Assembly: GCF_023516715.1 (NCBI RefSeq)
Contig: NZ_JAMGSI010000002.1
Location: forward strand, 62,001-126,000
DNA: 64,000 nt
Source of the DNA: Akkermansia massiliensis
Lineage (GTDB): Bacteria > Verrucomicrobiota > Verrucomicrobiia > Verrucomicrobiales > Akkermansiaceae
Direction of reading: 5' to 3'
Shown: positions 11,140 through 31,097 of the stretch, one piece after another
How the letters are laid out: every line of letters begins with the position of its first letter
Numbering within the stretch: position 1 is the stretch's first letter
The notes under the pieces: generated by a model
Database searches by the model: none
Told to the model about the DNA's origin: nothing
The model's input: only the letters and a program-made list of their open reading frames with translations
Translations under genes and position numbers: made by a program

Positions 11140-13305
11140 GTGAGTTACCAGGTCTTTGCCAGAAAATACCGTCCTCTGACATTCGATGACGTCCTTGGAC
11201 AGGATCATGTCGTCCAGACGTTGAAAAACGCCATTGAGCACAACCGCCTCGCCCACGCCTACCTTTTTGTAGGCCCCCGCGGAACGGGAAAAACATCTAC
11301 CGCCAGAATTTTTGCAAAAGCCCTGAATTGCAGCGGCGGTCCCAGGGTGGACTTTGACCCGCACGAAGACATCTGCGAGGAAATAGCGGAAGGGCGCAGC
11401 CTGGACGTCCTGGAAATAGACGGCGCATCCAACCGCGGCATCGACCACATCCGTGACCTGAGGGACAACGTGCGATTCGCTCCCAGCAGGGGCAATTTCC
11501 GCATCGTCTATATAGATGAAGTGCACATGCTCACCAAGGAGTCCTTCAACGCCCTGCTGAAAACGCTGGAGGAGCCGCCCCCCCACGTCAAATTCATTTT
11601 TGCGACTACGGAACCCCACAAGATTCTGCCGACCATCCTGTCGCGCTGCCAGCGCTTCGACCTGCGCCCCATTCCCTCTGAAATCATTGCGGAACACCTG
11701 CTTCACATCGCCTCTGCGGAAGGAGTGAGCCTGAGCCGGGAAGCGGCCTTTGCCGTCGCCAAGGTGGCGGACGGAGGCATGCGGGACGCGCAATCCATGC
11801 TGGACCAGCTTGTTTCCTTCTGCGGAGACCACATTGAAGAACAGCAGGTGCTTCACATCTTCGGCATCACGTCCCGGGAAACCGTAGCCCATGCGCTGGC
11901 GCTGATTCTGAACAAGGAGCTCCCCTCCCTCCTGCACCTCCTGCATGAACAGGCGGAAGCTGGAAGAGACATGGGCCAGTTCCTCTCTGAAATCATCTCC
12001 GCCGTGCGTGAAATCCTGGTCTCCAAGGTTGACCCGGAGGCCAGCTTCGATTCCCTGCCGGAATCCTCCAAGGAGGAACTTTCCGAACTCGTCAAACGCA
12101 CCCAGACGGACAAAATCCTGCGCCTGGTGGAAGTGCTGGCGGAAACGGAAGACAAGATGCGCTGGTCCACCAACAAAAGGCTGCATCTGGAAATGGGCCT
12201 GATCAAGGCCGTTCACGCTCTCGCGGAAGCCAGCATCAGCGATATTATCATGGCGCTGGAAGGCGCCCCCCTGGCATCCTCCGTCCCATCCTCCTCTCCG
12301 GCGCCCGCTCCGCGCCAGGAACAGGAGATGCCCGCGCCCGCCGCTCCGGTCCCTGCGCCGGAGCCTCCGGCAAACGCCCAGCCGCCCCTTCCTGCGGAAA
12401 AACCGGAGCCCGCTCCGGAAGAACACCTGATGGACCCGGTTCCGGACTTTTCCCCGGCCAACCCATTCCCGGCTCCCGCGGTACAGGCGAGCGAACCTGC
12501 CAGTGCGCAACCAGCCCCGGCTCCCGCAGAAGAACCCGAACCGCAGCCCACTGATCCCGCGCCGGAACCTCCCGTAACTGCTGCAAAATCCCCCTCCCCC
12601 GCCATTCCGCAGGAAGAGCCTTCCTGTCCCGCACCTGAACCGCGGCCGGAGCCCACTTCCGACACCCCGGAAGAGCCTCAACGTCCCGCCTCTGCCATCT
12701 CCGATGCCCCGGTGGCTCCTCCGGATTCTCCGGAACCCACTTTCATGGACCCTGAAGAAAACCTCCCGCCGGAAAGGCGCACCAGCAGCTTCTTTGACAA
12801 CCTGTTCGACACGGCAAGCGCTCCTTCCCGCACCCCTGCTCCCATGGTAAAAGAGGAACCGGAAGCCCCTGCCCCGCAATCCGGAAGAACCATCACGGAG
12901 GAGGACTGGAAAGCGGCGCTGGAACGTGCCGCCGCCAACTTCCCCCTCCAGGCGGACTTTCTGGCCAACAGCGTTTTCTCCGGCCATGACGGCGCATTCG
13001 TCGCCATCTCCTTTCATCCCTCCGACCATCAGGGAATGGACAGCCTCGGATCCGGCCCCCTGCGGGCGGCCCTGGAAGCGGACCTTTCCCAACGCGGCGG
13101 AGTCCCCGTCACCATTTCCATCCGCCAGGATTCCTCCGTGCCGGAGCCGGTTCAGGAAGAACTGGCCCCGCTGCCGGCGCCTCCCCCCCCGCGGCCTCCG
13201 CACCTTCTCCCAAACCCCAGGCGCCGCGGGAAAAACCCGCCGCAGCCGTTCAGGAACCCGCCCGGGAGAAAGATGAAGATAATTCCTACTATACGGACCC
13301 CCTGA
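11140..13305 (+). CDS. dnaX: DNA polymerase III subunit gamma/tau (zero-frame product)
   Basis: The clamp-loader ATPase of the replicative polymerase. GTG start at 11140. Walker A is GPRGTGKT (45-52), Walker B is IVYIDEVH (about 124-131), a sensor region FATTEPHKILPTILSRCQRF follows, and then lid and collar domains to about residue 365. The linker of about 210 residues is unusually rich in Pro, Glu and Ala, followed by a tau-type domain (TITEEDWKAALERAAANFPL). The zinc module after Walker A has lost most of its cysteines: only LNC and DIC remain where four are usual. The zero frame ends at 13305 in a low-quality basic tail, while the natural C-terminus lies in the -1 frame after a C8 run (13183-13190). 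The full protein is then 737 residues rather than 721. Confidence 0.9.
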   Translation: MSYQVFARKYRPLTFDDVLGQDHVVQTLKNAIEHNRLAHAYLFVGPRGTGKTSTARIFAKALNCSGGPRVDFDPHEDICEEIAEGRSLDVLEIDGASNRGIDHIRDLRDNVRFAPSRGNFRIVYIDEVHMLTKESFNALLKTLEEPPPHVKFIFATTEPHKILPTILSRCQRFDLRPIPSEIIAEHLLHIASAEGVSLSREAAFAVAKVADGGMRDAQSMLDQLVSFCGDHIEEQQVLHIFGITSRETVAHALALILNKELPSLLHLLHEQAEAGRDMGQFLSEIISAVREILVSKVDPEASFDSLPESSKEELSELVKRTQTDKILRLVEVLAETEDKMRWSTNKRLHLEMGLIKAVHALAEASISDIIMALEGAPLASSVPSSSPAPAPRQEQEMPAPAAPVPAPEPPANAQPPLPAEKPEPAPEEHLMDPVPDFSPANPFPAPAVQASEPASAQPAPAPAEEPEPQPTDPAPEPPVTAAKSPSPAIPQEEPSCPAPEPRPEPTSDTPEEPQRPASAISDAPVAPPDSPEPTFMDPEENLPPERRTSSFFDNLFDTASAPSRTPAPMVKEEPEAPAPQSGRTITEEDWKAALERAAANFPLQADFLANSVFSGHDGAFVAISFHPSDHQGMDSLGSGPLRAALEADLSQRGGVPVTISIRQDSSVPEPVQEELAPLPAPPPPRPPHLLPNPRRRGKNPPQPFRNPPGRKMKIIPTIRTP

Positions 13306-13352
13306 TTGACGCCGCCATGGAGATATTCCGCGCCCGCATCATTTCCCAATAA
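13183..13352 (+). other. dnaX: dnaX C8 slip site and -1 frame C-terminus
   Basis: Eight C at 13183-13190 are read in the zero frame as CCC CCC CCG. After a -1 shift at this run the frame stays open to TAA at 13350-13352. It encodes an Ala/Pro/Lys stretch ending in DPLIDAAMEIFRARIISQ, a well-formed terminal helix. The zero frame instead gives a Pro/Arg-rich tail ending at 13305. One extra C in the run would make the gene continuous. Either slippage or frameshifting produces the full subunit, or this is an indel or assembly error. Confidence 0.8.
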
Positions 13353-13386: not shown

Positions 13387-13701
13387 ATGAACATGATGAA
13401 AATGATGAAGCAGGTCCAGCAAATGCAGGCCGGACTTGCCGCCGCCCAGGAAAAGCTGGCCTCCCAGACCGTTGCCACGGAAGGCGCGGGCGGCAAGCTG
13501 AAAGTCACCGCCACCTGTGACGGAAACCTCACGGAGCTGGTGATTGATCCCTCCATCATCGACCCGTCCGATTCAGAATTCCTCCAGGACCTGCTCCTGC
13601 AAACCATCAATGCCGCCATAGCCAAGGGCAAGGAAACCGCGGCGGCGGAAATGAAAAAACTGACGGGCGGCATGGGCCTCCCTCCCGGCATGGGCTTTTA
13701 A
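13387..13701 (+). CDS. YbaB/EbfC nucleoid-associated protein
   Basis: 104 residues from ATG 13387 (MNMMKMMKQVQQMQAGLAAA). The fold is a long N-terminal helix, a three-stranded sheet (KLKVTATCDGNLTELVIDPS) and C-terminal helices ending in the Gly/Met/Pro-rich tail GGMGLPPGMGF, typical of the YbaB family. It binds DNA as a dimer. The dnaX-ybaB order is conserved in many bacteria, often with recR next, but recR is absent here. The start lies 34 bases after the -1 frame stop of dnaX. Confidence 0.92.
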   Translation: MNMMKMMKQVQQMQAGLAAAQEKLASQTVATEGAGGKLKVTATCDGNLTELVIDPSIIDPSDSEFLQDLLLQTINAAIAKGKETAAAEMKKLTGGMGLPPGMGF

Positions 13702-29984: not shown

Positions 29985-31097
29985 ATGCCTACCATTTCTC
30001 TTGCTCTCGGGGAACGTTCCTACGATATCCACGTGGAAAACGGCGCGCTGGACCGCGTGGGTGAGTTTGCCTACCGCGCCGGACTGGACGGCAAGATTGC
30101 GATTATTACGGATACCTGCGTAGCCCCGCTTTATGCGGAACGCGTGATGAAGTCCCTGGAGAGCGCTGGGTTCATGCCCAGCCTGCATGTGGTGGATGCC
30201 GGAGAAGCGTCCAAGAATATGCTGCAGGCCCAGGAACTGTGTTCCGAGCTGGTACGGGCGGGCATTGACCGCACCGGGTGCATTGCCGCCCTGGGCGGCG
30301 GCGTGGTGGGAGACCTGGCCGGCTTCGTAGCTTCCATTTATTACCGCGGCATTCCTTTCATGCAGATTCCTACGACGGTAGTCGCCCAGGTGGACAGTTC
30401 CGTAGGGGGCAAGACTGCCGTCAATATTCCGGAAGGGAAAAACCTGGCAGGCGCGTTCCATCAGCCGGCCGTTGTCGTGATCGACCCCACCACACTGGTG
30501 ACCCTGGACCGCCGCACGCTGGCGGAAGGCCTGGCGGAAGCCGCCAAGCACGCGGCCATCCGGGATGCTTCCATGCTCCATGAATTGAAAGGCCTGGGAC
30601 CGGAGCTTTCCATCGGCTTTTCCCTGAATACCATCGCCAAACTCCCCGATCTAATTGCCCGGAACGTGGCGATCAAGGCCCGCATCGTGGAGAATGATGA
30701 ATTGGAAACACTGGATATCCGCGCCCTGCTCAATTTCGGCCATACCATCGGCCACGGCATTGAAGCCGCTGTTCCCTACGGCACCATCCTGCACGGGGAA
30801 GCCGTGGCGCTCGGCATGCGCGCCGCCCTGTTCCTGAGCGAACGGAAAGCCGGGTTGAGCTCTTCCGACGCCAAGAAGATTCTTTGCACCCTCCAGGCTC
30901 TGGAACTTCCCCTGGTTCTCCCGGATGACATTGATACGGAAACGGTTCTCAAGAAGACAGCGTCCGACAAGAAGTTCCGGGCCGGAACCATCCGCTTCGT
31001 TCTGCTTTCCAAGGCGGGGGAAGCAGGCATTTCCAAGAAGATTACGCGGGAAGATATGGCGGAAGCCATTGAAGAATTGCGCCGCCCCCTGCCCTGA
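29985..31097 (+). CDS. aroB: 3-dehydroquinate synthase
   Basis: Converts DAHP to 3-dehydroquinate, step two of the shikimate pathway, using NAD and zinc. 370 residues from ATG 29985. Motifs are GGGVVGDLAGFVASIYYRG (about residues 103-121), TTVVAQVDSSVGGKTAVNIP (NAD and substrate loop), and the metal ligands in ALLNFGHTIGHGIE and LHGEAVALGM. An upstream ATG at 29928 adds 19 residues not typical of the family and is disfavoured. No other aro genes are adjacent. Confidence 0.96.
   Translation: MPTISLALGERSYDIHVENGALDRVGEFAYRAGLDGKIAIITDTCVAPLYAERVMKSLESAGFMPSLHVVDAGEASKNMLQAQELCSELVRAGIDRTGCIAALGGGVVGDLAGFVASIYYRGIPFMQIPTTVVAQVDSSVGGKTAVNIPEGKNLAGAFHQPAVVVIDPTTLVTLDRRTLAEGLAEAAKHAAIRDASMLHELKGLGPELSIGFSLNTIAKLPDLIARNVAIKARIVENDELETLDIRALLNFGHTIGHGIEAAVPYGTILHGEAVALGMRAALFLSERKAGLSSSDAKKILCTLQALELPLVLPDDIDTETVLKKTASDKKFRAGTIRFVLLSKAGEAGISKKITREDMAEAIEELRRPLP

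Follow-up and report, generated by a model that had tools for sequence, protein, structure and literature searches.

The dnaX gene of the window, a 64,000-nucleotide stretch of the Akkermansia massiliensis genome, is interrupted by a one-base frame break at a run of eight cytosines (C8) close to its 3' end. The break is best explained as a private, non-programmed loss of one C from a C9 run by slipped-strand replication, a reading that we hold at a probability of about 0.55. To judge from sequence conservation, the -1 frame beyond the run is the one that carries the true, ancestral DnaX C-terminus. Programmed frameshifting in this gene is very unlikely.

The dnaX gene of the window and its two frames

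The gene is identified as dnaX by family matches to TIGR02397 (E 5.5e-130), PF13177, and PF12169, in agreement with the initial annotation. The features of the region are as follows.

11140..13305, + strand: dnaX zero frame, 721 aa, with a GTG start at 11140, a stop at 13303-13305, and the DnaX family matches
13183..13190, + strand: C8 run, the site of the frame break, with codons CCC CCC CCG in a Pro-rich linker
13191..13305, + strand: zero-frame Pro/Arg-rich tail, an out-of-frame translation without a family match
13191..13352, + strand: conserved DnaX C-terminal tail, found in the -1 frame only, AASAPS...YYTDPLIDAAMEIFRARIISQ, with the stop TAA at 13350-13352
13219..13247, + strand: stable RNA stem beginning 28 nt after C8, z about -2
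13387..13701, + strand: next gene, a putative ybaB-like reading frame, named from sequence recognition

Past the run, the zero frame reads CCC CCC CCG CGG CCT and onward; it meets no stop at the run and stays open for ~110 nt. From the run onward, the -1 frame has no stop before its TAA, and a product shifted by -1 at the run has 737 residues versus 721 for the zero frame. The run, the ends of both frames, and the two lengths had been given correctly in the initial annotation. The codon-usage score switches frame exactly at the run, with values of 16.5 before and 13.7 after and a shift of -1. DEDNSYYTDPLIDAAMEIFR is an example of a peptide from the -1 tail. A comparison of gene orders found that dnaX and the following gene, which we take to be ybaB-like, stand in the same order as in E. 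coli. Another frame change was flagged at 31085 of the window and was rejected because it is a gene end.

The C-terminus in relatives

In the nearest relative (G010), dnaX is a single frame of 737 residues that ends in YYTDPLIDAAMEIFRARIISQ. The window and G010 products are 100% identical across the 101-residue domain directly before the run. The -1 tail of the window differs from the zero-frame C-terminus of G010 by 4 substitutions in 53 residues, with 0 in the last 21, and this number is too small for a relaxed-selection test on the tail. The terminal motif YYTDPLIDAAMEIFRARIISQ lies in the zero frame in 59 of the 60 other readable dnaX tails of the genus, where it is preceded by a more variable linker, and the exception is G012. 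The count leaves out two loci that are cut off before the tail (L007 and L096) and seven fetched stretches without a match. One continuous dnaX frame is present in 10 of the 11 readable close relatives and in all 49 distant members of the genus. Among the other families of the class that were examined, most have a similar ending, (F/Y)xxDPLIxxALExF. The near identity to G010, the conserved motif, and the frame switch of the codon-usage score show that the open -1 frame does not reflect chance. Because the motif is kept in the zero frame across the genus and a similar ending recurs in the class, the -1 frame of the window is taken to be the ancestral C-terminus, as had been proposed from the window sequence by itself. 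The zero-frame Pro/Arg tail is out-of-frame translation.

L007 lies at a contig start (G044:C34) in the short-read assembly of a close relative, and that assembly breaks exactly in the proline-codon C stretch of dnaX.

AlphaFold2, run on the domain of a relative with only four sequences, predicted a folded domain, a disordered linker, and a terminal helix. In E. coli tau, the alpha-binding tail comprises residues 611-636 (PMC11470591), and the terminal helix of the Akkermansia protein may be its counterpart. That the C-terminal region is homologous to tau domain V is only weakly indicated. Pfam DnaX_C matches 4 of 58 relatives, with a best E of 0.0014, and the Foldseek matches to 2aya and 5fkv reach an E of about 0.1 only. 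The hhalign probability for the region versus E. coli tau domain V is 2%, and sequence searches of solved structures returned no relative of the region.

The cytosine run in relatives

At the position of the run, G010 has CCT-C5-GG, and G004-G006 have interrupted codons. G007-G009 have CCC CCG CCC CC(C/G), which encodes four prolines, as C9 would. G001 has a C8 run, and its tail is nevertheless in frame. Five distant members (L021, L024, L028, L102, and L103) have C8 or C10 near the 3' end with intact frames. The run thus varies among relatives (C5, C6, C8, C10, or interrupted), a long C run is absent in most, and the stretch appears to be a shifting set of proline codons that occasionally turns into a long homopolymer. 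Such variation is expected of a mutable stretch and favors a contraction. Scans for the dnaX locus in genome contigs recovered solely species already in the set, and viral contigs scanned for further copies held nothing related. Since the relatives keep intact dnaX frames, the break in the window has the appearance of an ordinary indel at the strain level or of a sequencing error left in the assembly. The initial annotation had rightly named an indel or an assembly error as the main competitor to its own frameshifting proposal, and that proposal is contradicted by the continuous frames of the relatives, most of them without a long C run.

Long coding runs in the window genome and in G012

The leading alternative is that the run length was miscalled, in which case the chromosome would have C9 (or C6) and an intact dnaX. 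Residual base-calling errors occur in long C runs, which counts against a real contraction. A break in an essential gene is also unlikely a priori, and the tail is otherwise undamaged. Every C/G run of at least 8 in the window genome (G000) was fetched and judged where the coding signal was clear on both sides. All 19 other coding C/G runs of 8 or more are in frame. When the test is widened to any base and to lengths of at least 7 in the same stretches, all 33 other coding runs are in frame as well. Inspection by eye of the runs near gene ends found nearly all of them intact, including C9/G9 runs in pyrF and in a cysteine-desulfurase-like gene. The break in dnaX is the sole clear one among the long runs of this genome.

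Two of the runs stand apart. In a hydrolase-like gene, a C9 at the 3' end (L037, about base 1501; G000:C1:33770-33778) may alter the C-terminus of the product. By eye, a G11 (L062, about base 1501; G000:C1:1479784-1479794) lies in what appears to be a rearranged gene fragment, in which a piece of ATP synthase beta is fused to an RHS-like repeat frame.

The same test gave a different result for G012, a single-contig assembly. Here, 7 of the 19 long C/G runs in coding sequence carry one extra base and break the frame, and the run in tyrS is one of the 7; examples are L182, L187, L188, L206, L208, L210, and L211. The test thus has the power to detect error-prone assemblies, and some assemblies, as G012 shows, contain many errors of this kind. 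Apart from the window genome, a broken dnaX tail occurs in G012 only, at a C10. With 7 of 19 runs out of frame, G012 is an error-prone assembly, and its dnaX break was rejected as an independent second case. Frameshifts should not be argued from the G012 sequence.

Because all other long coding runs are in frame, homopolymers in the window genome are generally well called, and a real one-base contraction is somewhat likelier than an assembly error. The preference for a real indel is moderate and not decisive, and a miscalled run is the main alternative, at a somewhat lower probability than the contraction.

A proposed private one-base contraction

In the proposed course of events, the ancestral DnaX would have been read in one continuous frame that ended in the conserved terminal helix. 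Slipped-strand replication would then have dropped one C from a C9 run, which encoded four linker proline codons, in the sequenced lineage or isolate, and the change from C9 to C8 would have moved the conserved tail into the -1 frame. An ancestral C9 fits because G007-G009 have four prolines at the same place; C6 with a gain of two is also conceivable but would be a larger step. The contraction presupposes that the missing base is real and is not a base-calling error. It also presupposes that the cell tolerates the break, either because some full-length protein would form via slippage at C_CCC_CCG or because the tail would not be strictly essential. In E. coli, DnaX is essential and tau-tail mutants are sick (PMC11470591, PMC11869525), so a fixed loss would be unexpected, which weighs against the contraction.

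Real indels in G8-G10 runs have been documented in Akkermansia, in Amuc_1413 (PMC13055324). The G9 of this gene resembles the window in genus, in the one-base change within a C/G run of eight to ten, and in being private to some genomes. Amuc_1413 differs in that it is a surface-polysaccharide gene for which mixed reads and lost mucin binding were demonstrated, whereas dnaX is a replication gene that is broken near its C-terminus.

Possible slippage at the run

The initial annotation had suggested that C8 is able to slip. This part holds, as C_CCC_CCG permits -1 re-pairing, and in E. coli heptamers made up of C alone are prone to shifting (PMC4066793). Even without a stimulator, a small amount of shifting is possible at this site, and some full-length protein may therefore form if C8 is real. 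The further step to functional frameshifting is not supported, as the run is not conserved.

If C8 is both real and long kept, transcriptional or ribosomal slippage might restore enough full-length DnaX, as has been proposed for Blochmannia (PMC3017870). The unchanged last 21 residues of the tail agree with such a rescue. However, C8 is known from one genome of the species, the tail has too few substitutions for a test of selection, and documented cases of rescue involve A/T runs. Blochmannia dnaX shares with the window a one-base homopolymer frame break in the tau-only part of an otherwise intact gene (PMC3017870). In Blochmannia, the run is poly-A/T, the hosts of the gene are AT-rich endosymbionts, and two species share the break, whereas the window has poly-C in one genome only. 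Our analysis makes a maintained rescue improbable. It is more improbable still that C8 is real and fixed in the species and that poly-C slippage makes two DnaX forms that are alike except in the terminal helix, so that just one of the two would make the contact that this helix serves, perhaps with the polymerase.

A probable slippage-type dnaX elsewhere in the class

In some genomes of the class, DnaX has only ~380 residues: the gene reaches an A10 run that is soon followed by a stop, and over 100 further codons of tail are open in another frame. In the order of G138 (L149, L155, L168-L171, and L212-L239), 28 of 30 dnaX loci have A9-A11 at about codon 370-380. Of these 28, 13 have the tail in the -1 frame, 6 in the +1 frame, and 9 in the zero frame. 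In 19 of them, the zero frame stops shortly after the A run and a tail of 100-180 codons continues. From the sequences, this looks like a slippage-expressed dnaX (gamma/tau) that is conserved through the order with an interchangeable tail frame. A conserved run with a changing frame is what transcriptional slippage would allow.

The pattern fits a two-ORF dnaX type with A10 runs that has been reported in other groups (PMC3711429). This GeneTack type resembles the window gene in that the N-terminal part and a conserved C-terminus are in different frames, the latter shifted by -1. In the GeneTack type, A7-A10 is conserved among species (PMC3711429), whereas the C8 of the window is not conserved and its zero frame continues past the run. 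An A9-A10 run near codon 370-450, as in Thermus or the two-ORF type, is absent from the window dnaX. This contrast with the other order supports the view that C8 is an indel.

Programmed -1 frameshifting as an improbable alternative

The least probable explanation is the one first suggested, in which programmed -1 frameshifting would yield two DnaX forms in a set ratio. The gene is the classic one for this mechanism, C8 is a possible slippery site, and another order of the class has a genuine A10 version. Neither the run nor the frame break is conserved even in the nearest species (C5 in G010), which tells against it. Rfam gave no dnaX element match at the window gene. A stem at the E. coli spacing of 5-8 nt downstream is absent: only a 4-bp hairpin abuts the run, and the stable stem 28 nt downstream is too far off for a typical stimulator. 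A Shine-Dalgarno-like element ~10 nt upstream is also absent, the sole AGGA being ~25 nt upstream. In E. coli and Thermus dnaX, slippage occurs far upstream and gives a much shorter gamma. In the window, the zero frame has no stop at the run, and the two products are nearly equal in length, with no short gamma. E. coli dnaX therefore shares with the window the gene and the direction of the shift, but the site is different, and the window lacks A_AAA_AAG, the spaced stem, the Shine-Dalgarno stimulator, a truncated gamma, and conservation. A literature search found no paper on dnaX frameshifting in Akkermansia.

Implications

The case serves mainly as a caution: a broken frame, even in the gene best known for frameshifting, is not necessarily programmed. 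A genome-wide check of long runs tells a well-called assembly, such as that of the window genome, from a poor one, such as G012. The gene model of the window dnaX is corrected, in that the natural DnaX C-terminus is the one encoded in the -1 frame. Should the indel prove real and be retained, it would be a natural experiment on the dispensability of the DnaX tail in Akkermansia.
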